43,846 nucleotides of DNA, from assembly GCA_903906315.1 (NCBI GenBank), contig CAIVJW010000096.1, positions 1 to 43,846 on the forward strand. The letters are read 5' to 3'. Both the position numbers and the translations under genes were made by a program. Positions 17,711-34,272 of the stretch are shown here, one piece after another. The first letter of the stretch is position 1. Every line of letters starts with the position of its first letter. Under the pieces are notes generated by a model. The model was given only the letters and a program-made list of their open reading frames with translations, searched no databases and was not told where the DNA came from. The stretch comes from an uncultured delta proteobacterium. Its GTDB lineage: Bacteria; Myxococcota_A; Polyangia; Polyangiales; Polyangiaceae.

Positions 17711-18199
17711 TCACCGATCGTCGATGTCCCGCTCCAGCACGAGCCGGTGGCCGGGGTGGAACCCCTCGCGGCTGAAGAACCGCACGAGCTCCAGCGCGTC
17801 CCACGCGACCTCGGTGCGGATCTTCTCCACGCCGAACGCGCGCGCGTTCATGACGAACTGCCGCATGAGCGCCGCGCCGACGTGCCGCCCGCGGAAGTCC
17901 TTGTGGACCGCGAGCGAGTCGATCACCGCCGACGGCTCGGCGCGCCCGAACTCGCCGTAGTGCATCTCGGACATCAGAAAGCCCACCACGAGCCCGTCGA
18001 CCTCGGCCACGAGCGACATGTGCAAGCGGCTGTCGCGCAGGCTCGCCGCGACCTTGTCGCGGTAGTACTCCCGCCGCGCACGCCCCGACGCCGTCGCGTC
18101 GATGCGGACCACGGCCTCCAGATCGGCCTCGTTCAGGGCGCGGACCAGGACGTCGTCCGTCTCGAGCTCGCCCGCCTTCAGCTCACGTTCCTCGCTCAT
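17711..18199 (-). CDS. GNAT-family N-acetyltransferase, last gene of the bcr operon
   Basis: A 162-residue acetyltransferase. The acetyl-CoA-binding motif A is visible as VIDSLAVHKDFRGRHVGAALMRQF (consensus R/Q-x-x-G-x-G/A), with motif B near ALELVRFFSREGF. The substrate cannot be read from sequence. Its ATG overlaps the bcrD stop (ATGA at 18196-18199), so it is translated with the reductase. It may acetylate a pathway enzyme or an amino-aromatic compound; Rhodopseudomonas palustris carries a GNAT enzyme, BadL, in its benzoate cluster. A link to benzoyl-CoA metabolism rests on position only. Confidence 0.88.
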   Translation of the reverse strand: MSEERELKAGELETDDVLVRALNEADLEAVVRIDATASGRARREYYRDKVAASLRDSRLHMSLVAEVDGLVVGFLMSEMHYGEFGRAEPSAVIDSLAVHKDFRGRHVGAALMRQFVMNARAFGVEKIRTEVAWDALELVRFFSREGFHPGHRLVLERDIDDR

Positions 18200-19080
18200 G
18201 TCGTAACCTCGCTCGGATCGAGCGCCGGCAGGAGCCCGCGCGCCTGCAGTTTCCGGTGCCTCGCGGCGCCCCAAAGCGCCGCGCCCATCGCCCCCGCGAA
18301 GATCGCGTCCGGGTGCGTCACCACGCGCAGCCCGACCGCCCGCTTGTCCGAGGCGATCGCCTGCTCGACCGCCCGCGTGAGGCCCACGTCGGCGGAGAGC
18401 CCGCCCGTCAGGACGACCGTGCCGCCGATCTTCGCCGATCGCAGGAGCTTGGCGAGGCGATCGGCCATCGACTGGTGGATGCCCTTGAGGATGTTCGCCG
18501 TCGAGATGCCGCGCGACACCATGTTGATGACGTCGGTCTCGGCGAGCACGGCGCAGATGCCGCTCACCTTCTCCGGCGCCGTCGCGGTGAGCGAGAGCGG
18601 CCCGACCTCGTTCACGGTCACGCCGAGGTAGCGCGCGATGTTCTCGATGAACTGCCCGCTGCCCGAAGCGCACTGGCTGGTCATCGCGTAGCCGAGCACC
18701 TTGGCACGCCCGTCCATGCGGATCGCGCGCGCGTGCAGCGCCCCGATGTCGAGCGCGCCGGTCGCGCCGGGGCAGAGGTACGCGGCGCCGCGCGCGTGGG
18801 TCGTCATGCCGTAGAAGTGCCCGCGCCGAAACTCGACGACGTGCCCCTCGCCGGTCGACGCGACGTACTCGACGTCGCCCTTGCCGAGCTTCGCCTCCTC
18901 GAGCGCGAGCTCGAAGCAGTGCTCGGCCACCTGCCGCGGATCGCGGCGACGGATGCGCTCGACGACCTTCGAGAGCAGCGTGCCCTCGCCGGTCGGGTCG
19001 ACGCGGAACACGCAGACCTTGATCGAGCTCGTGCCGACGTCGACGCCGCCGGTGACGACGTCCTTGGTTTCAGCGTTCAC
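18196..19080 (-). CDS. bcrD: Benzoyl-CoA reductase (ATP-dependent, class I), subunit D
   Basis: A 294-residue subunit of the electron-activating half of benzoyl-CoA reductase. The ASKHA ATPase fold shows GVDVGTSSIKV at 12-22 and TGGLSADVGL. C137 (SQCASGSGQFIEN) and C176 (SGICAVLAETDVI) fit the two Cys each activator subunit gives to the bridging [4Fe-4S] cluster. Length fits BcrD/BadG (about 280-290), not the longer BcrA. With BcrA it couples ATP hydrolysis to lowering the electron potential. GTG start overlaps the bcrA stop by 4 nt. Related activators of 2-hydroxyacyl-CoA dehydratases were considered, but those are single homodimeric proteins, whereas here two different ones sit with B and C. 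Confidence 0.92.
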   Translation of the reverse strand: MNAETKDVVTGGVDVGTSSIKVCVFRVDPTGEGTLLSKVVERIRRRDPRQVAEHCFELALEEAKLGKGDVEYVASTGEGHVVEFRRGHFYGMTTHARGAAYLCPGATGALDIGALHARAIRMDGRAKVLGYAMTSQCASGSGQFIENIARYLGVTVNEVGPLSLTATAPEKVSGICAVLAETDVINMVSRGISTANILKGIHQSMADRLAKLLRSAKIGGTVVLTGGLSADVGLTRAVEQAIASDKRAVGLRVVTHPDAIFAGAMGAALWGAARHRKLQARGLLPALDPSEVTT

Positions 19081-20456
19081 GCCTGCGCCTCCTGGAAGGT
19101 GTCCGCGCCGGCGGCCTCGCCGGCGGCCGCGTCCGCGGTCTGCGCGTCCCGCAGCGCGAACAGCGCCGCGCCGAGCGCGCCCGTGAAGATCGAGCTCGGC
19201 GAGATGTTGAGCCGCCGCTCGCCGTAGTTCTCGGCGATGAGGTCTCGCAGCGCGCGGACGGCCGCCGGGTTGTTCGCGACGCCGCCGGTGAAGGTGAACT
19301 CGTCCATCACGCCGCCGGATCGCGCGAGGATCGACATGGCGCGCAGGATGATCGCCCGGTGCAGGCCCGCGAGGATGTCCTCGCGCTTCTCGCCGAGCGC
19401 GAGCCGGTCGCGGAGCTCCGCGCCCGCGAACACGGTGCACGTCGACGAGATGCGCACGCGCCGCGTCGACAGCTCGGCCAGCGGGCCGAGCTCGTGCAGC
19501 CCGAGGTTCATCTCGTCGGCGATGTAGCCGAGGTAGCGACCGCAGCCGGCCGCGCATCGGTCGTTCATCTGGAAGCCCGTCACGATGCCGTCGCCGTCGA
19601 CCTGAATGGCCTTCGTGTCCTGACCGCCGATGTCGAGCACGGTGCGCGTGCCGGGGAACATCGCGTGCGCGCCGAGCCCGTGGCAAAGGATCTCCGACCG
19701 GATCTGCGCCTTCGGGAACGGCAGCCGCGCGCGGCCGTAGCCGGTGCCGACGCTGCAGCGCGTGACCGGCGGGTGCGCGAGCAGGTCGTCGAGCGCCGCG
19801 AGCGCCTGCGCGCGGATCTCGACCCCCTGCTTGCCGTAGCGATCGAGCGTGCGATCGAGCGCCTCGCGCGCGTTGCCCTCGAACGTGAGGTCGTCGGGCT
19901 CGTTCTCGACCTTCAGGATGGCCTTGTCGAAGACGCCGACGATGTCCTCGTACGGCAGCTTCTTCGGCTCGGCCTTGCCCTCGGCCAGCTTCTGGAACTG
20001 GGCGCCGGCGATGTCGCGGAAGAACTCGCTCTTCTTCGCGTCGGCGCCCGCGAGCCCGGAGAACATGCGCTCGGCGAGCACCTGCATCTCGTCGAGGATC
20101 GCCGTCAGCGCGGCTCGGAGCGCCTCCGTCTCACCGGAGAGCCCGAGGCACGATCGGCGCAGCGTCGCGAGCTGCCGGAGGTGCTGCCGATGGCGGAACG
20201 ATCGTTCCAGCGACGGCCCGAGCACCTTCGCGTGCGCGGCGAGCACCGGATCGGCCTCGAGCGCGCTCCGCAGCCGGCTCATCTGCGCGTCGACGAACGC
20301 CTCGCTGCGCGCGATCTCGCAGGCGAGGTCGTAGTTCGACCGGCTGTTGGTGATGCCCCGGCCGAGGATCGTGCCGGCCGCGTCGATGACCACGGCCTTC
20401 GTGGTCGTCGATCCGAGGTCGATCCCGACGAAGCACTCGAATGCCTCGACGCTCAC
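19077..20456 (-). CDS. bcrA: Benzoyl-CoA reductase (ATP-dependent, class I), subunit A
   Basis: A 459-residue partner of BcrD. The phosphate-binding loop GIDLGSTTTKAVV begins at 11, and a helical insertion at about 60-230 is typical of BcrA/BadF and absent from the shorter D subunit. The ATPase core continues with LDIGGQDTKAIQVDGDG. The cluster ligands are C301 in CAAGCGRYLG and C340 in SSTCTVFAGAEL. TGGVANNPAAVRAL closes the nucleotide site. An Ala-rich tail of about 20 residues is slightly longer than in characterised proteins. The GTG start overlaps the bcrB stop (20453-20456). Confidence 0.94.
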   Translation of the reverse strand: MSVEAFECFVGIDLGSTTTKAVVIDAAGTILGRGITNSRSNYDLACEIARSEAFVDAQMSRLRSALEADPVLAAHAKVLGPSLERSFRHRQHLRQLATLRRSCLGLSGETEALRAALTAILDEMQVLAERMFSGLAGADAKKSEFFRDIAGAQFQKLAEGKAEPKKLPYEDIVGVFDKAILKVENEPDDLTFEGNAREALDRTLDRYGKQGVEIRAQALAALDDLLAHPPVTRCSVGTGYGRARLPFPKAQIRSEILCHGLGAHAMFPGTRTVLDIGGQDTKAIQVDGDGIVTGFQMNDRCAAGCGRYLGYIADEMNLGLHELGPLAELSTRRVRISSTCTVFAGAELRDRLALGEKREDILAGLHRAIILRAMSILARSGGVMDEFTFTGGVANNPAAVRALRDLIAENYGERRLNISPSSIFTGALGAALFALRDAQTADAAAGEAAGADTFQEAQA

Positions 20457-21796
20457 GGCGACACCTCGCTCGCCGCGCCCACGCCGCCGCGCCGACGCTG
20501 CTCGATCATCTGGAAGTAGCTCTCCAGCCGGTTTTTCACGTTGGCCGCCGAGAAGTAGCGCGGGTCGACGAGGTCGCTCTCGATGAAGCCGCCCGGCACG
20601 CCCGTGCGCTTCTCGATCTCGCGCAGCATCAGGAGCTGCCCCGCGCTGAACGAGTTGCAGCTCTTGACCGAGTGCACGATGAACCCGTCGGCCTGATAGT
20701 CCTTCACGTACTTGGCGATCATGCCGGTCCGCGAGGGCAGGTTCAGGTTCGTGTAGCAGCCGAGGCAGTAGTCCGACAGCGTCTCGAACGGCCGCGTCGG
20801 GTCGTGCCGGAAGCCGAAGTCGTAGAGGCCGCCGACCTTCGTGTACGTGCTCGCGACGCAGACCGCGCCCTCGACCGCGAACATCTCCCAGAACTCGCGG
20901 AAGCTCGTCCAGTTGGGCGGCCCCTCGACGACGATGCGGTAGCGCTGGTCGTTCAGCGGCCCGAGCGGCGTGATCGGCCCCTCCTTGCGCGCGATCCGCC
21001 CGGCGACCTCCTCGCGCAGCACCTTGTAGTAGTGCTCGCCCTCCTCCGTGCCGCGGAACGCCGTGAAGATCGGCCCGATGTAGAAGACGCCTCCGAAGTA
21101 GCCGTCGATCGGCGACGGGTGGTGCTTGCCCGACTCGAGCACCCAGACGAGGTCCTCCTCGGCGCGGGCGGATCGCTCGAGCAGCCCCTTCAGCTTGTCC
21201 TCGTCGAGCTTCTTGCCCGTGAGCTTCTCGAGCTTCGGCACGATCTCGGTGCGCAGCTGCTTCACCACGTAGTCGCGCATCTCGGCCGTGACGATGCCGT
21301 CGCCCTGGTAGGGCACGTGCAGCATGGCGACCTCGGCGTTCGGGAACTCCTGCTTGAGCAGCTCGAACCACTTCATGAAGGTGAAGCAGCCCGTGTACGA
21401 GAGCAGCAGCATGTCGGGCGGCGGCATCTTCTTGCCCGTCGGGCCGAGGCCCGTGCGCGCCATGCCGATGTCGCACTTCACGTACGAGCACACGTCCTCG
21501 GAGTGCCCGAGCTTCTCGGCCTCCGTGATGTACGCGCCCGACTTCTTGCGCATGCCCGCCTGCAGGGCGTTGATCTCGGGCAGGACGGGCAGCACGTCGA
21601 ACGCGAGCAGGAGCTCGGTCAGGTTGCCCGGAACGAAGGTGTAGACGACCTTCTGCCCGCGCTCGTGCGCCTCGGCGAGCTTGTCGAAGTGGCCCGAGAT
21701 GAGCTCCTTTTGCAGGAGCATCGAGGGCTCCTTCGGGACCTCGACCTCCGTCGCCGCGTCGGTCTTGGCCTCTGATCGGGATCGCTGCTCGCTCAT
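20453..21796 (-). CDS. bcrB: Benzoyl-CoA reductase (ATP-dependent, class I), subunit B
   Basis: A 447-residue subunit of the substrate-reducing half, homologous to 2-hydroxyacyl-CoA dehydratase subunits. Candidate iron-sulphur ligands include C103, C108, C137 (SYTGCFTFMKW), then DYCLGCYTNLN and SVKSCNSFSAGQ. Other family landmarks are FVPGNLTELLLAFDVLPVLPE near the start and GYFGGVFYIGPIFTAFRG. With BcrC it binds benzoyl-CoA and carries out the two-electron ring reduction to cyclohexa-1,5-diene-1-carbonyl-CoA. Length matches BcrB/BadE. ATG overlaps the bcrC stop. Confidence 0.93.
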   Translation of the reverse strand: MSEQRSRSEAKTDAATEVEVPKEPSMLLQKELISGHFDKLAEAHERGQKVVYTFVPGNLTELLLAFDVLPVLPEINALQAGMRKKSGAYITEAEKLGHSEDVCSYVKCDIGMARTGLGPTGKKMPPPDMLLLSYTGCFTFMKWFELLKQEFPNAEVAMLHVPYQGDGIVTAEMRDYVVKQLRTEIVPKLEKLTGKKLDEDKLKGLLERSARAEEDLVWVLESGKHHPSPIDGYFGGVFYIGPIFTAFRGTEEGEHYYKVLREEVAGRIARKEGPITPLGPLNDQRYRIVVEGPPNWTSFREFWEMFAVEGAVCVASTYTKVGGLYDFGFRHDPTRPFETLSDYCLGCYTNLNLPSRTGMIAKYVKDYQADGFIVHSVKSCNSFSAGQLLMLREIEKRTGVPGGFIESDLVDPRYFSAANVKNRLESYFQMIEQRRRGGVGAASEVSP

Positions 21797-22959
21797 TGGT
21801 CCTCGCTCCAGAGGCGGATCGAATCCGAGAAGGTGCCGGCTTGCTCGTGGATGGCCTGAAACTGCGCCGTGTTCTCCGAGTAGCGGAAGCTCGTGTGCTG
21901 CACGTTGGCGGCCTCGAGCGCCGTCTGCAGCATGGGCTGCTCGAGCAGCGCCGGGTCGCAGAAGCTCGGCGCGCAGAAGACGACGCCCTCCGCCTTGCGC
22001 TTCTTGCAGAGGTCGATGAGATACTCGCCCTTCTGCTCGCCGGCGACGTAGCGCGACGACGTGTGGCTCCCGTGCGCGATGTACGCCCGCGCGAGCGCCT
22101 CCCACGGGTCGCCCGTCTCGTCGACGTCGCCGCGGAGGAAGCGCGCGCCGAGGACGAGGTCGTCGTCGACGATGTAGCAGCCGGCGCGCTCGAGCGTCTT
22201 GAGCAGGCCGAGCGGCGGCTGCTCGCAGAACGATCCGACGAGCACCACGCGCGACTGGTCGAGCGGCGCGCGCCCCGAGACCCTCGCCGCCTCGAGGTAC
22301 TCGCGCACGATCGCGCTGTGCTCCTCGACCGGCAGCTGGTAGCCGGCGCGCACGACGACGTACGCCTCCGCGGTCGGCACGAGGTGCGGCGCGCGAGCCC
22401 GGAGATCGTAGAGCGCGCGCAGGAGCCTGCGGTTCTCGTTGTGCAGCGCGATCGCCTCGCGCAGCCGATCGTCGCTCGGCGTGACGCCCGACACGCCCGC
22501 GAGCCCGCGCCCGAGCTCGCGGAGGTCGTGCACGTAGAACTTCCCGCCGACCTCCCAGTCGTGGTTGTGCGGCACGTCGATGTACCGCACGTACTTGTTC
22601 GGGAAGAGCAGCTGCCACATCCCCGACAGGTTGCGGATGACGTCGCAGATCGCCGGGAAGAGCATGCCGTCGAGGGCGTCGAGCTTGCCGGAGAGGCCCA
22701 TCTCGATGACGCTGCGCGGGAGCTGGCAGATGTACGACTGGAAGTAGGCGTCGCCGCGGATGATCTCGATCTGATCCCCGCCGCCGAGCACGCCGACCGA
22801 GAGCATGCCGGCGGCCTCGACGACCTCGCGGGGCGCGTAGATCGGGAGGAAGCCGATGGCCTTCTTGCCGGACTCGGCGCGGTGGCGCAGGACGCACGAC
22901 AGGCCGACGTCGAGGACGATCTCCTCGCAGACGGCCGCGATTTCGGCGGCGCTCCTCAT
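21793..22959 (-). CDS. bcrC: Benzoyl-CoA reductase (ATP-dependent, class I), subunit C
   Basis: A 388-residue partner of BcrB in the substrate-reducing half. Seen: KKAIGFLPIYAPREVVEAAG near 32-51, C78 (YICQLPRSVIEMG), C105 (FPAICDVIRNLSGMW), VGSFCEQPPLGLL and FCAPSFCDPALLEQPML; these Cys are in the positions expected for cluster binding in this family. Length fits BcrC/BadD (about 385) rather than BcrB. It overlaps dch upstream and bcrB downstream, each by 4 nt, so the order is C-B-A-D as in characterised class I operons. Confidence 0.93.
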   Translation of the reverse strand: MRSAAEIAAVCEEIVLDVGLSCVLRHRAESGKKAIGFLPIYAPREVVEAAGMLSVGVLGGGDQIEIIRGDAYFQSYICQLPRSVIEMGLSGKLDALDGMLFPAICDVIRNLSGMWQLLFPNKYVRYIDVPHNHDWEVGGKFYVHDLRELGRGLAGVSGVTPSDDRLREAIALHNENRRLLRALYDLRARAPHLVPTAEAYVVVRAGYQLPVEEHSAIVREYLEAARVSGRAPLDQSRVVLVGSFCEQPPLGLLKTLERAGCYIVDDDLVLGARFLRGDVDETGDPWEALARAYIAHGSHTSSRYVAGEQKGEYLIDLCKKRKAEGVVFCAPSFCDPALLEQPMLQTALEAANVQHTSFRYSENTAQFQAIHEQAGTFSDSIRLWSEDQ

Positions 22960-23732
22960 CGGTCCACCCACACCGGCGCGCGCCGCGCGAGGAAGGCGGC
23001 GATGCCCTCCTTCGCGTCGGCCGTCGCCATCAGCTCGGAGAGGTACAGCTTCTCGAGGCGATCGAGCCGCGCGCCGAGCGCCTCGGCGAAGGCCGCGCGC
23101 GCGGCCCGCGTGGCGAAGCGCACCGCGGCTCCCGAGAGCTCGAGGTACTTGTCGGCCCAGGCGAAGACGCGCGCGTCGACGTCGGCCGCGGGCGCCACCT
23201 CGTCGACGAGACCGAGCGCGAGCGCCTCGGCGCCCGAGACGGACTCGCCGAGCGTGACGAGCCGATCGACGACCGGCTGCCGGCACCGGAGCGGCAAGAC
23301 GGCCGCGAGCACCGGCGGGAACACGCCGAGCTTCACCTCGGGACACCCGAGCGTCGCGTCGTCCGCCGCGACGACGTGGTGACCCATCACGGCGAGCTCG
23401 AGCCCACCGCCGAGACAGCTGCCGCGCACGGCGACGCCGAGCGGCAGGCCGACGTCGACGATCGTGCGCATGAGCCCGTGGAACGCCGGGAGCATGGCGT
23501 CGACCTCGCCCGGCGCGTGCTCGGGCACGCTCGCGCCGAAGCTGAACGCGCGGCCCTCGGCCGTGAGCGCGACCGCGCGGACGCGCCCGTCGGCGCCGAG
23601 ATCGCGGAAGGCGCGGTCCAGGGCGACGATGACGGCGCGAGAGAGCACGTTGCCCTTGCCCGCCTGCAGGTGGACGCGCGCGACCTTGCCCTCCGCGAGG
23701 CGCGAGATCGCGATCGGTGCGGCCTCGATCAC
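22956..23732 (-). CDS. dch: Cyclohexa-1,5-dienecarbonyl-CoA hydratase
   Basis: A 258-residue crotonase-fold enzyme, predicted to add water to the dienoyl-CoA made by the reductase and give 6-hydroxycyclohex-1-ene-1-carbonyl-CoA. The oxyanion-hole segments are SFGASVPEH (in place of the CAGAD pattern of ordinary enoyl-CoA hydratases) and GSCLGGGLELAVMGH, followed by GCPEVKLGVFPP. Length equals that of known Dch proteins. The specific call rests on this variant pattern together with its place between oah and bcrC, both overlapped by 4 nt. A generic enoyl-CoA hydratase is the alternative. Confidence 0.88.
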   Translation of the reverse strand: MIEAAPIAISRLAEGKVARVHLQAGKGNVLSRAVIVALDRAFRDLGADGRVRAVALTAEGRAFSFGASVPEHAPGEVDAMLPAFHGLMRTIVDVGLPLGVAVRGSCLGGGLELAVMGHHVVAADDATLGCPEVKLGVFPPVLAAVLPLRCRQPVVDRLVTLGESVSGAEALALGLVDEVAPAADVDARVFAWADKYLELSGAAVRFATRAARAAFAEALGARLDRLEKLYLSELMATADAKEGIAAFLARRAPVWVDR

Positions 23733-24841
23733 TTCGACGCCTCCGGCTCCACGCACGAGGCGTCGTCGACGCCGAGCTCGCGCAGGAACTCCTCGTTCCA
23801 CGTCTTGCCCGAGGCGAGCCCGCGGCGCAGCGCGTAGAAGTCGAGCTCGCGCTTGCCGCCCGGCTTGAAGTGGAACGCGCGGAAGCCGGCCTTCGCCTCC
23901 GTCATCATGTTGAGCGCGAGCCACGCGCGGCTGCCCTCGCGGTTCTTGTCCCAGTGCGCGAGCTTGTGCTTGCGCATGCTCTCGAGCGTGCGCGTGAGGC
24001 AATCGGGCATCGTGGCCGCAAGGCGCGTCACCATGCGCTCGACGGCGACGTCGAGCTGCGAGAGGTCGACCTTGCCCTTGGCGAGGAGCTTCTTGCCTTC
24101 GTCGAGCGGGCCGCCCGCGAGCGACTCGCCGTAGACCATCCTGCCGGTGTCGGGGTCGATCCAGCGCTTGGTCTCGACGAGCGGGTTCGGCACGAAGGCG
24201 TCGTCGACCTTGAGCGAGGGCACGACCTCCGTGATGAGGCCGAGGCGGAGCGCCTTGTGCGCGCTCCAGGGCTCACAGAGCGTGCAGCTCTCGATCGCGC
24301 GCTCGATGCCGACGAAGAGCGGCAGGAAGTCCGTCGCACCGCCATCGGGCGCCGATCCGTGCTTCGGCCCCGCCTGCCCGAAGCGCGCCAGGTCCTGCGC
24401 GATCGAGAAGTCGCAGGCCATGCCGATCTCCTGGCCGCCGCCGACGCGCAGGCCGTTCACGCGGCAGATCGTGGGCTTGTCGCAGTGGAGGATGGCCGTG
24501 ACCATGTCGTTGAAGAGCCGCATGTACGCGCGGTACCGGTCCGGGAAGCCCGAGTAGTACGTCGCGTACTCGCGCGTGTTGCCGCCCGCGCAGAAGGCGC
24601 GGTCGCCCTCGCCGGTGAACACGGCCGCGACGACCGACGGATCCTCGCTCGCGCGGCGGAACGCGAGGATGACCTCGCGCACGGCCTCGGTCGTGTAGGC
24701 GTTCATCTCGCCCGGGTTGCAGAGCCAGATCCACGCGGACCAGAGGCCCTCGACCGGGCGCCCCGACGGGTCGCGCAGCGGCCTCTTCTCGTATCGAATC
24801 GCCTTGAACTCGAGTCCAGGAACCAGCTCGTGCACGCCCAT
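23729..24841 (-). CDS. oah: 6-oxocyclohex-1-ene-1-carbonyl-CoA hydrolase (ring opening)
   Basis: A 370-residue crotonase-superfamily hydrolase predicted to hydrate and cleave the oxidised ring to 3-hydroxypimelyl-CoA, the ring-opening step. It is about 100 residues longer than usual crotonases, as Oah/BzdY proteins are. Landmarks are WSAWIWLCNPGEMNAYTTE, FCAGGNTREYATYYSGFP, GLRVGGGQEIGMACDFSIAQD and the long C-terminal helical part with RKHKLAHWDKNREGSRAWL. GAGAGG lies about 9 nt before the ATG. It is preceded by a 192-bp gap with tandem repeats and overlaps dch by 4 nt. Presence of oah separates this route from the BadKHI route of Rhodopseudomonas. Confidence 0.92.
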   Translation of the reverse strand: MGVHELVPGLEFKAIRYEKRPLRDPSGRPVEGLWSAWIWLCNPGEMNAYTTEAVREVILAFRRASEDPSVVAAVFTGEGDRAFCAGGNTREYATYYSGFPDRYRAYMRLFNDMVTAILHCDKPTICRVNGLRVGGGQEIGMACDFSIAQDLARFGQAGPKHGSAPDGGATDFLPLFVGIERAIESCTLCEPWSAHKALRLGLITEVVPSLKVDDAFVPNPLVETKRWIDPDTGRMVYGESLAGGPLDEGKKLLAKGKVDLSQLDVAVERMVTRLAATMPDCLTRTLESMRKHKLAHWDKNREGSRAWLALNMMTEAKAGFRAFHFKPGGKRELDFYALRRGLASGKTWNEEFLRELGVDDASCVEPEASK

Positions 24842-24903
24842 GAGTGAGACCTCTCGCTAGCGCCGACCGCGCGGCATGGAGGGCCGGAGTTGCCGGCCCG
24901 GGG

Positions 24904-25039
24904 TTCGGGGCCGCTCGCGGCCCCGTGGAGACTACGGTTCGGGGCCGCTCGCGGCCCCGTCGAGACTACGGTGCGGGGACTATCGCGGCCCCGTCGAGAC
25001 TACGGTGCGGGGACGATCGCGGCCCCGTCGAGACTACGG
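24904..25039. repeat. Four tandem 34-bp units with palindromic cores between had and oah
   Basis: Units at 24904-24937, 24938-24971, 24972-25005 and 25006-25039 share the ends GCGGCCCCGT(G/C)GAG and ACTACGG. The first two contain GGGGCCGC-TC-GCGGCCCC, a perfect 8-bp stem. In the last two the left arm has diverged (GGGGACTATC, GGGGACGATC), so the hairpin is imperfect. The fourth unit runs through the had stop codon (TAG at 25034-25036 on the minus strand), so the array may have grown from the 3' end of had. It could attenuate or process mRNA between the two genes. Confidence 0.9.
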
Positions 25040-26119
25040 AACCAGGACCGCCAGCTTCGACATCGCGTGCGCGCGCACGGCGTCGAGGACGGCGTTGACG
25101 TCATCCATGGGGCGACGCTCGACGAAGGAGCGCACGGCCACCTTGCCGGAGAGCACCAGGTCGACGACCCCTGCGTAGAGCTCCGGCGCGCAGCCCCAGT
25201 TGCCGAAGATCTCGGCGTCGAGGGCCATCACGTTCGACAGGCGGACGGAGACCTTGTCGCGCGTGTAGCCGACGACCGAGAGGCTGCCGCCGCGGTCGAG
25301 CAGGTCGAACGCGGTCTCCTGCCCGGCGGTGGTGCCGCTCGTCTCGAACACGCGCAGCGGCGCGTCGGTCGCGCCCCACGCCTTGCGGCGCGCGCGGATC
25401 ACGTTGCGGAGGTCCTTCGAGGTCTGGCCGCGCGCGTCGATGCGCTCGTCGACCGCGTCGCCGAGGGCCTCGAGCCGCGCCGGGCTCACGTCGATGGCGA
25501 CGACCTTCGCGCCGAGCGCATGCGCGATCTGGGCGCCGAAGCCGCCGACTCCGCCCGCGCCGACGAACACCGCGACGTCGCCGGCGGCGAGGCCGGCGCG
25601 AACGACGGCCTGGTAGGCGGTCGTGGCCGCGTCGGCGACGGGCGCGATCTCCCAGGCCTCCAGGCCCGCGGCGCCGATGGGCCCGGACAGGCCGGGCGCG
25701 TCGTCGAGCGCGACGACGTCGCGGCCCGGGACGACCACGTGCGAGGCGAACCCGCCGTCGGCGTCGTTGCCCGGCATGAGCCCCTTCGGGCACGCCGTCG
25801 CGCGGCCGCTCTTGCACGCGCGGCACACGCCGCAGGGCGAGACGGCCGGCGCGAGGACGCGCTTTCCCGCGAGGTCCCCGCGCACACCGGCGCCCATCGC
25901 GAGGACGCGCCCGACGACCTCGTGGCCGAGCACGAGCGGCAGCGGCGCGCGGGGCGCCACGTCGCCGTCGGCAAAGCCGAGGTCGGTGTGGCAGACGCCG
26001 CAGCCGAGCACCTCGAGCAGCACCGCGCCATCCGGCGGATCGCCCCACGTTCGGTCGACGCGCACGAGCGGCGTCTTCGGAGCCTCGAGAACCCAGGCGT
26101 AGCCTCGCACCGTCATCAT
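25034..26119 (-). CDS. had: 6-hydroxycyclohex-1-ene-1-carbonyl-CoA dehydrogenase
   Basis: A 361-residue zinc-dependent alcohol dehydrogenase predicted to oxidise the Dch product with NAD+ to 6-oxocyclohex-1-ene-1-carbonyl-CoA. Catalytic zinc ligands are C43 (CGVCHTDLGF) and H66-E67 (LGHEVVG). The structural zinc site is C96, C99, C102 and C110. The nucleotide fold shows VFVGAGGVGGFGAQIAH and ends with the acidic residue in VVAIDVS. Sequence alone says medium-chain dehydrogenase; the substrate call comes from length, from WGCAPELYAGVVDLV-type C-terminal features and from linkage to oah-dch-bcr. GTG 26122, ATG 26119 or ATG 26116 could be the start; no strong ribosome-binding site decides it. 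Confidence 0.87.
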   Translation of the reverse strand: MMTVRGYAWVLEAPKTPLVRVDRTWGDPPDGAVLLEVLGCGVCHTDLGFADGDVAPRAPLPLVLGHEVVGRVLAMGAGVRGDLAGKRVLAPAVSPCGVCRACKSGRATACPKGLMPGNDADGGFASHVVVPGRDVVALDDAPGLSGPIGAAGLEAWEIAPVADAATTAYQAVVRAGLAAGDVAVFVGAGGVGGFGAQIAHALGAKVVAIDVSPARLEALGDAVDERIDARGQTSKDLRNVIRARRKAWGATDAPLRVFETSGTTAGQETAFDLLDRGGSLSVVGYTRDKVSVRLSNVMALDAEIFGNWGCAPELYAGVVDLVLSGKVAVRSFVERRPMDDVNAVLDAVRAHAMSKLAVLVP

Positions 26120-26186
26120 CACCCCAGCTCTGCGCCTGCCGGCGCGCTCGCCCGCCCCGCGGCGACGCGAGACGAGCCTGCCCTCT

Positions 26187-26210: not shown

Positions 26211-26332
26211 CGATCTCAACCACCCGCACCCGTTGCAGCCCGCCTCACCCCTCGGCGCAGCGAGTGCGCCTCGAAGTCCCGCTCGAGCCTGAGCGCGTGC
26301 GCCCTGCAGCGTGCATGCCACGGCGGCGTCGA

Positions 26333-33018: not shown

Positions 33019-34272
33019 ATGTCGCGACCGCACGAGGCCGACGTGGTGGTGGCCGGCGCCGGGCCGGTGGGGCTGATGACCGCGCTCATGCTCGCCGATC
33101 GCGGCGTCGCGGTGGAGGTCGTCGACCAGGAGCCGCAGGGAGGCCTGCACGACTTCGCGCTGACGTTGCACCCGGAGGCGCTTCGCCTGCTCGACGACGT
33201 CGGCGTCGCGAGCGCGCTCATCGATCGCGGGGTCAAGGTCGACACCGTGGCGCTCTACGGCCCCGACGGGCGGAAGGCCGAGCTGCGCATCGACAAGCTG
33301 GACGGCGACTTCCCGTTCCTGCTCGTGCTGCCGCAGGGCACGCTCGACGACGTGCTCGAGCGACGCCTCGCGCAGCGCGACGTGCGCGTGCGCTGGGACC
33401 ACCGCCTCGCGGCCGTCGAACCGGCGGCCGACCGCGTCGGGCTGACCATCGAGAAGCTCGAGCTCGAGACGGGCGGCTACGCCGTGCAGACCACGTTCTA
33501 CGTCGTCGGGAAGGTCACCGAGACGCGCGCGAGGTTCGTGGTCGGCGCCGACGGCTTCCACTCGATCGTCCGGCGCCGCGTCGGCCTCGACATGGTCCCC
33601 GCCGGCGAGGCGCTGACCTACGCGGCCATCGAGTACGCGACGACCGACGGGCCCGGCGGGCAGGGCTGCCTCATCCTCGGCGATCACGGCGTCGACGCCT
33701 TCTGGCCGCTGCCGAACGGCGGCGGACGCTGGAGCGTCGCGCTGCCCGCGACGCCTGCCGCCGCGCAGCGCGAGCACCTGCGCGTGCAGATCGGCCACCG
33801 CGCCTACCCGCACGTGAAGGAGGAGCGCGTCCACGCGATGCTGCGCGCCCGCGCCCCGTGGTTCGACGGCATGGTCGCCACCAGCGGCCGCAGCATGAGC
33901 GTGCGCTTCGAGCGCGCGATGGCGTCACGCTTCGGCGCGGGGCGAGCCTGGCTCGTCGGCGACGCCGGCCACGTGACCGGGCCGGTCGGCGGACACAGCG
34001 TCAACGTCGGCCTGCGCGAGGCCCACGACCTCGGATCGCGCCTCGCGCGCGTCCTCGGCGGCGCGTCGACCTCGCTGCTCGACGCGTACGCGGCCGAGCG
34101 CCACGCCGAGTGGCAGAAGCTCCTCGGCGTCACCGCCGCGATCACCCCCGGCGAGGGCGCGAGCGCGTGGGCCCGCGGTCAGGCGGCGAGGCTCCTGCCT
34201 TGCCTGCCGGGGTCCGGAAAGAGCCTCGACGCGCTCGCGGCGCAGCTCGGGCTGACGATCGGGCCGCGCTGA
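33019..34272 (+). CDS. FAD-dependent monooxygenase (aromatic-hydroxylase type)
   Basis: A 417-residue flavoprotein of the p-hydroxybenzoate hydroxylase superfamily. The FAD-binding fold starts with VVVAGAGPVGLMTALML and ends its second strand in VEVVDQEP. VVGADGFHSIVRR is the DG motif, and LVGDAGHVTGPVGGHSVNVGLREAHDL is the third flavin-binding signature. The substrate is not predictable; aromatic rings are common, but antibiotic or quinone modification is possible. ATG at 33019 is chosen because a longer form lacks a ribosome-binding site and begins outside the flavin fold. It stands alone and ends at a hairpin shared with glgB. Confidence 0.88.
   Translation: MSRPHEADVVVAGAGPVGLMTALMLADRGVAVEVVDQEPQGGLHDFALTLHPEALRLLDDVGVASALIDRGVKVDTVALYGPDGRKAELRIDKLDGDFPFLLVLPQGTLDDVLERRLAQRDVRVRWDHRLAAVEPAADRVGLTIEKLELETGGYAVQTTFYVVGKVTETRARFVVGADGFHSIVRRRVGLDMVPAGEALTYAAIEYATTDGPGGQGCLILGDHGVDAFWPLPNGGGRWSVALPATPAAAQREHLRVQIGHRAYPHVKEERVHAMLRARAPWFDGMVATSGRSMSVRFERAMASRFGAGRAWLVGDAGHVTGPVGGHSVNVGLREAHDLGSRLARVLGGASTSLLDAYAAERHAEWQKLLGVTAAITPGEGASAWARGQAARLLPCLPGSGKSLDALAAQLGLTIGPR

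Follow-up and report, generated by a model that had tools for sequence, protein, structure and literature searches.

A class I benzoyl-CoA reductase operon in a myxobacterial genome that also carries genes of the aerobic box pathway

What would a pathway for reducing aromatic rings do in a myxobacterium, whose phylum is chiefly associated with aerobic predation and polymer degradation? The question is raised by a contig of 43,846 nucleotides (CAIVJW010000096.1, or contig C96 of genome G000; "the window" hereafter means this whole stretch) from an uncultured member of the Polyangiaceae, which carries seven intact genes in the order had-oah-dch-bcrCBAD, predicted to encode a class I, ATP-dependent benzoyl-CoA reductase (Bcr) and the enzymes that hydrate, oxidise and open the reduced ring. 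We consider it probable, at roughly three chances in four, that this is a Thauera-type operon, horizontally acquired, that serves as the low-oxygen arm of a benzoyl-CoA hub with two arms, the box pathway being the aerobic one. The operon is ordinary in mechanism and less ordinary in host, and it is the phylum rather than the single genome that is of note, as class I Bcr is common among its genomes and, almost without exception, accompanied by the aerobic box route. A limited literature search found no work linking class I benzoyl-CoA reductase to Myxococcota, and the main text of a 2024 paper on activated-sludge Myxococcota contains no occurrence of "benzo-" (PMC11821767).

Enzyme identity, gene content and host

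Protein families were assigned with NCBIfam models and their curated cut-offs, together with the Pfam domains PF06050, PF01869 and PF00583 (Table 1). BcrB, BcrC, BcrD, Oah and Had exceed the cut-offs for bcr-type or ring-opening families; in addition, PF06050 is present in BcrB and BcrC (subunits of the HGD-D type) and PF01869 in BcrA and BcrD (ATPases of the BadF/BadG/BcrA/BcrD type). Models of the bzd type score far lower, BcrB reaching 69.8 bits against 675.9 on its bcr model. An identity as 2-hydroxyacyl-CoA dehydratases, which the earlier note on this DNA had held up against its own reading, is rejected in favour of Bcr: the dehydratase models give 150.8 bits for BcrB and 185.5 for BcrC (cut-offs 750 and 700), compared with 675.9 and 494.5 on the Bcr models.

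Alignments of 87 to 117 rows that include the window show invariant cysteines in all four subunits: in BcrA, C258 as well as C301 and C340 (110/110 rows); in BcrD, C137 and C176 (87/87); in BcrB, C103, C137, C347 and C380 (117/117); and in BcrC, C78 (107/107) and C105, C245, C261 and C334 (108/108). The numbering previously given for BcrA C301/C340 and BcrD C137/C176 is exact, and we take these four residues to be ligands of the bridging 4Fe-4S cluster. By sequence, all four subunits have a 3-methylbenzoyl-CoA reductase as their nearest solved structure; PDB entries 9g87 and 9gai are matched by every subunit, 8s02 by B and C. Hits to solved structures are to class I reductases (Mbd, Bzd) and dehydratase-family proteins for BcrB and BcrC, and to Mbd subunits and dehydratase activators for BcrA and BcrD, all of them distant (192 bits for BcrB against the methylbenzoyl enzyme). 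Had is close to two solved 6-hydroxycyclohexene-carbonyl-CoA dehydrogenases, the better of which is given in Table 1. The predicted enzyme of the operon is a bcr-type class I (ATP-dependent) benzoyl-CoA reductase.

The open reading frame coordinates bear out the claim that the four reductase subunits, Dch, Oah and Had are intact and read in one direction, all on the minus strand. The span proposed for them, 18196-26119, holds the seven genes and leaves out both a 34-base tandem repeat and an eighth gene of the unit, encoding a GNAT acetyltransferase, with which the unit covers 17711-26122. Consecutive genes overlap by 4 bases at every junction from oah to bcrD, and the GNAT gene overlaps bcrD by 4 bases as well; had is set apart by the repeat from this tightly overlapping remainder.

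The host genome comprises 8.79 Mb in 455 contigs and is 98.55% complete. In an RpoB tree of 22 rows it falls in a set supported at 100/100 with seven genomes of the same family and one (G234) of another family in the same order, apart from the planctomycete, krumholzibacterial, SAR324 and proteobacterial rows. For GlgB, encoded beside the operon, the highest-scoring of 20 other genomes is G376, of the same family (939.6 bits). The host genome is that of a myxobacterium, so that the worry that the contig might stem from another phylum or be chimeric found no backing in RpoB, and the proposal that a myxobacterial host has a class I reductase and the full route through ring opening holds on family scores, gene set and host tree.

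Table 1. Features of the operon in the window, with best family or domain matches
Feature	Position	Strand	Evidence
Had, 6-hydroxycyclohex-1-ene-1-carbonyl-CoA dehydrogenase	25034-26122	-	TIGR03201, 371 bits (cut-off 338.65); PDB 7quy, E 1.7e-99
34-base tandem repeat, 4.1 copies	24902-25039		Tandem Repeats Finder; end of had into had-oah gap
Oah, 6-oxocyclohex-1-ene-1-carbonyl-CoA hydratase (ring opening)	23729-24841	-	TIGR03200, 516.6 bits (cut-off 464.45)
Dch, cyclohexa-1,5-dienecarbonyl-CoA hydratase, divergent	22956-23732	-	Best match TIGR03189, 212.1 bits (below cut-off 292.5)
BcrC, benzoyl-CoA reductase subunit C	21793-22959	-	TIGR02263, 494.5 bits (cut-off 421.15)
BcrB, benzoyl-CoA reductase subunit B	20453-21796	-	TIGR02260, 675.9 bits (cut-off 486.55)
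BcrA, ATPase/activator subunit A	19077-20456	-	Best match TIGR02259, 556.3 bits (below cut-off 578)
BcrD, ATPase/activator subunit D	18196-19080	-	TIGR02261, 363.6 bits (cut-off 312.85)
GNAT acetyltransferase, last gene in unit, possibly BadL-like	17711-18199	-	PF00583, 48.7 bits

Distribution, association with box genes and horizontal transfer

For the distribution of class I Bcr, 377 Myxococcota genomes and 14 control genomes were surveyed for a BcrB match at E 1e-60, to which the curated cut-off was then applied. Matches were found in 58 Myxococcota genomes, falling in 37 of 234 genera, and in none of the controls; 53 genomes, about one in seven, are over the cut-off, which rules out a unique acquisition by a single genome. 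The rarity attributed to the system in the earlier note was thus overstated, the more so with close relatives in Planctomycetota, Acidobacteriota, Krumholzibacteriota and other phyla. Among GTDB contigs at least 579 stretches were confirmed as relatives by tblastn at E 1e-3, a loose threshold that makes this figure something other than a count of reductases. The best 80 of these (the named loci) are 64-73% identical and belong mainly to Planctomycetota, Acidobacteriota, Pseudomonadota and Myxococcota, with one or a few from Krumholzibacteriota, Gemmatimonadota, Eisenbacteria and SAR324. The bcrCBAD genes stand in this order in 69 of the 80, and all seven genes are kept in the window's order on one strand in 42 of the 53 loci with room for them, across several phyla (11 differ, and the other 27 loci are too short).

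The host genome also encodes BoxB (736.2 bits, cut-off 499.1) and BoxC (794.9 bits, cut-off 712.3) as neighbours on contig C219. The protein of an adjoining divergent gene joins a helix-turn-helix to a shikimate-kinase domain, which is the architecture described for BoxR (PMC6449761). At E 1e-60 BoxB was identified in 173 of the 377 Myxococcota genomes, 167 of them over the cut-off and six below it that were kept. It accompanies Bcr in 54 of 57 bcr-positive genomes compared with 119 of 320 others (Fisher p 3e-17, a test that ignores relatedness, genome size and completeness); one genome, G168, had been dropped before this count with a BcrB score of 223.7 bits, less than half the cut-off, and its inclusion gives 55/58 versus 118/319. 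In the window's own family the figures are 11/11 and 13/24 (p 0.007). For instance, in the same-family genome G355 a molybdenum hydroxylase trio comes after bcrCBAD and precedes boxB and boxC, which are convergent, the whole forming a hub cluster of at most 17 kb (L129, G355:C46). The two routes are already described from single genomes of Thauera, Magnetospirillum and Azoarcus (PMC6449761; PMC10803450); the new points are that this genome also carries box genes and that bcr and box are paired across the sampled genomes of the phylum.

Bcr phylogeny was assessed from joined BcrC, B, A and D in a tree of 107 rows and in a more careful tree of 44 rows chosen from them. Excluded beforehand were fifteen short loci redundant with the window or with longer loci, and then 10 of the remaining 117 rows, in which coverage extended to fewer than three subunits. 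Neither tree includes a named Thauera, Magnetospirillum or Rhodopseudomonas sequence, and eight plasmid records considered as named references were not used, the best place in each being below 60% identity (22-27%). The window operon and that of G027, a genome of another family in the same order, are sisters with support of 100 in the 107-row tree and 100/100 in the 44-row tree (identities of 65% for Had, 74% for Oah, 61% for Dch, 63% for BcrC, 77% for BcrB, 72% for BcrA and 72% for BcrD), whereas in the RpoB tree G027 falls outside the 100/100 set that contains the host. A single clade for the 11 same-family rows is rejected in the 44-row tree (p-AU 1e-6), which rules out vertical inheritance within the family. 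Because the operon groups with that of another family, against the RpoB tree, it was probably acquired as a block by horizontal transfer. Repeated exchange of the operon among Myxococcota is likely, since, judged by the starred branches of the 107-row tree, the nine Myxococcota-labelled rows require four changes or more; wrongly binned contigs may be another source of these scattered rows.

Oxygen, substrate and purpose of the pathway

We infer the substrate, direction, expression and oxygen conditions of the pathway from the sequence. As in its family, BcrA and BcrD would hydrolyse ATP and drive electrons from reduced ferredoxin into BcrB-BcrC, which would reduce benzoyl-CoA to the cyclic 1,5-dienoyl-CoA; Dch would then hydrate the dienoyl-CoA, Had would oxidise the product, and Oah would open the ring to give 3-hydroxypimelyl-CoA for beta-oxidation. 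A 2-oxoacid:acceptor oxidoreductase is encoded elsewhere in the genome (alpha subunit 646.3 bits, cut-off 482.75; beta 262.2 bits, cut-off 261.9). With benzoyl-CoA as the hub, the Bcr operon would be the low-oxygen arm and the box genes on the other contig the aerobic arm. Since bcr and box genes accompany cbb3- and aa3-type oxidases, the gene content suggests a facultative degrader that would use Box with oxygen and Bcr when oxygen is scarce. The contrast once drawn with strictly anaerobic former deltaproteobacteria does not fit a genome that encodes BoxB, BoxC and two terminal oxidases.

The likeliest, if unproved, source of benzoyl-CoA appears to be 4-hydroxybenzoyl-CoA. On contig C67 of the host a gene is 67% identical to subunit A of the G355 hydroxylase, five other matches in the genome being 31-39% identical, and it adjoins a B-subunit-like gene; both find their best match in 4-hydroxybenzoyl-CoA reductase models. 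The G355 trio is itself nearest to that enzyme and below its cut-offs (A 862.5 bits against 994.55, B 302.4 against 404.55, and gamma 195.0 against 257.8, level with a glyceraldehyde dehydrogenase model).

Several observations weigh against a two-armed hub fed in this way. Within the operon, BcrA lies 22 bits under its cut-off with the bcr model as its best match, and Dch falls short of the model of its expected family (Table 1), as does the Dch of G027 (229.8 bits); no ferredoxin gene is present among the called genes of the operon, and the TGCA operators discussed below are missing from its upstream region. The aerobic arm is read from BoxB and BoxC, and their association with Bcr has the statistical limits given above and three bcr-positive, boxB-negative exceptions, of which two are 80 and 83% complete and the third, G009, is 97% complete. 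As to supply, none of 19 genome matches to the benzoate-CoA ligase model TIGR02262 is over the cut-off (best 209.1 bits against 375.25), the host's 4-hydroxybenzoyl-CoA-reductase-like proteins are below theirs (A 812.6 against 994.55, B 269.7 against 404.55), and no gamma-subunit gene was called beside the pair. As to respiration, the only two heme-copper oxidase matches are of the cbb3 and CtaD (aa3) types, both over the cut-off; of four molybdopterin oxidoreductase matches two were scanned, neither being a clear nitrate reductase: one is PhsA-like, at 467.2 bits against a cut-off of 694, and the other is unassigned. No anaerobic respiratory chain was clearly found, in a genome to which no dedicated search for nitrite, nitric-oxide or nitrous-oxide reductases was applied.

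Two loci on contig C251 of the host concern other molybdoenzymes. In one (L182:7558-11258) genes for a PhsA-like molybdoenzyme, a 4Fe-4S subunit and an NrfD-like membrane subunit form a candidate sulfur-compound reductase, the PhsA and NrfD scores being below their cut-offs. In the other (L176; G000:C251:24306-25577) a formate-dehydrogenase-like molybdoprotein frame contains one in-frame TGA, in a context that presumably resembles a selenocysteine site.

Class I Bcr is regarded as a strictly anaerobic enzyme. A tentative and rather unlikely form of the hub is that Bcr, possibly an oxygen-tolerant form, works under micro-oxic conditions beside the box epoxidase, is fed by 4-hydroxybenzoyl-CoA, and is coupled to a cbb3 chain rather than to nitrate respiration or fermentation.

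It seems unlikely that the operon encodes a related class I aryl-CoA reductase, within the same family, whose main substrate is another acyl-CoA, such as hydroxy- or methylbenzoyl-CoA. Such a substrate would agree with the divergence of BcrA and Dch from the curated models, with a 3-methylbenzoyl-CoA reductase as the nearest solved structure and with the ligase result, but the solved methylbenzoyl enzyme is only distantly related, and BcrB, BcrC and BcrD pass the benzoyl-CoA reductase models, the bzd type scoring far lower. Oah and Had also pass their cut-offs, and their usual substrates bear no additional group on the ring; boxB and boxC imply a pool of benzoyl-CoA.

The earlier note had also allowed for a biosynthetic or detoxifying use; one example would be the supply of alicyclic CoA units from which a secondary metabolite is built. 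Myxobacteria have an extensive secondary metabolism, an anaerobic respiratory chain was not clearly found, and an FAD monooxygenase encoded on the opposite strand at a distance of 7 kb (33019-34272) has polyketide hydroxylases among its matches, which are weak and under the cut-offs. Such a use is nevertheless very unlikely, because Oah and Had extend the route beyond the opening of the ring; in addition, 10 of the 30 proteins called were scanned as flanking proteins and none passes the cut-off of a secondary-metabolite biosynthetic family, and the seven-gene order is conserved across several phyla, as described above. Still more doubtful is a foreign contig wrongly binned into the genome, which a draft assembly in 455 contigs and the conflict between Bcr and RpoB phylogenies might suggest, but the operon sits inside a 43.8-kb contig on which GlgB, the sole flanking gene compared, is nearest to same-family G376 whereas the operon is nearest to G027, and same-family G102 has bcr on a 3.2-Mb contig.

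If the low-oxygen arm of the hub is active, Myxococcota would join in the breakdown of lignin-type aromatics once oxygen is gone, and surveys that treat class I Bcr as an alpha- and betaproteobacterial mark would overlook much of its diversity. The link between bcr and box in the sampled Myxococcota also suggests that the class I enzyme may persist as the low-oxygen partner of an aerobic route.

Regulation, neighbouring genes and known systems

Published operators of BoxR and BzdR consist of TGCA repeats spaced by 1, 6 or 15 bases (PMC6449761; PMC6678401). Repeats at these spacings were found in none of 70 operon loci, the window included, within 400 bases upstream of had; the 6-base form does occur in the boxC-boxR gap of the host (L180:11907). 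A TGCA-N3-TGCA site is found at 26305-26315, some 180 bases before had begins, and a second one in the boxC-boxR gap, with 36 such sites in the 8.79-Mb genome, another of which is inside an unrelated called gene 8 kb from an HcrA-like gene. Among the 70 loci the window alone has this site, and the N3 spacing was chosen after the fact. Control of the operon by BoxR is therefore rejected, the published spacings being missing before had and the N3 site being post hoc and confined to the window. The operon of Thauera MZ1T is likewise described as having no such site upstream (PMC6449761).

For the GNAT gene, a homologue within 2.6 kb after bcrD on the same strand was identified in 41 of 89 related loci, is absent from 40 with room for it and could not be placed in 8 that are too short; it is missing beside the closest operon, that of G027. 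In Rhodopseudomonas palustris the GNAT protein BadL is reported to make acetamidobenzoates that release the Rrf2 repressor BadM (PMC6191541). A BadL-like role in the window is a reasonable guess from a match at the level of the general GNAT family. Twelve of the 80 named loci encode small proteins that fall into one cluster; one member scans as Rrf2, and the cluster may provide the partner of GNAT there.

Some features of the operon and its relatives are more variable. The 19-base core of the 34-base repeat was found in none of the 200 loci compared, including 13 larger stretches of the host's own genome, and the RNA fold of the had-oah gap has z = -1.91, 8 of 200 shuffles being equally good. 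Between dch and bcrC, L053 (6086-6748) and L129 (6118-6801) have a gene some 220 codons long that looks TetR-like by eye, the L129 copy having no NCBIfam match; similar-sized genes occupy this position in other same-family operons, and none is present in the window or G027. A gene for a beta-eliminating lyase of the tryptophanase/tyrosine phenol-lyase type (one member scanned), which might supply phenol or indole, was observed in six of the 80 named loci, four of them from Planctomycetota (L041, L042, L047, L051, L057, L087).

Compared with known systems, the operon shares its class I Bcr and a complete or near-complete route outside Pseudomonadota with Krumholzibacteriota, for which a bcrABCD benzoyl-CoA pathway is already published; the two phyla differ, and the main text of that paper does not contain the string "Myxococc-" (PMC10936416). 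The class I reductases encoded by Azoarcus bzdNOPQ and mbd have the superfamily and subunit make-up of the window enzyme, but its subunits are far weaker on bzd models, and an insert of about 170 residues makes its BcrA longer than MbdQ. The BadL/BadM system of R. palustris resembles the window in a GNAT acetyltransferase linked to benzoyl-CoA reductase genes (PMC6191541), and BadM is an Rrf2 regulator, the type shared with the cluster in 12 of the named loci; no Rrf2 gene was seen by eye beside the window operon. The closest likeness is to Thauera aromatica, whose operon has the order had-oah-dch-bcrCBAD-fdx (PMC6449761): the window has the same genes through bcrD in the same order, a comparison of published gene order and curated models rather than a direct alignment to a named Thauera sequence. 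The window differs in having the GNAT gene in place of fdx after bcrD, BcrA and Dch under their cut-offs, a 34-base repeat between had and oah, and a host from Myxococcota. Like the window's genome, Thauera is described as having the box pathway as well (PMC6449761).

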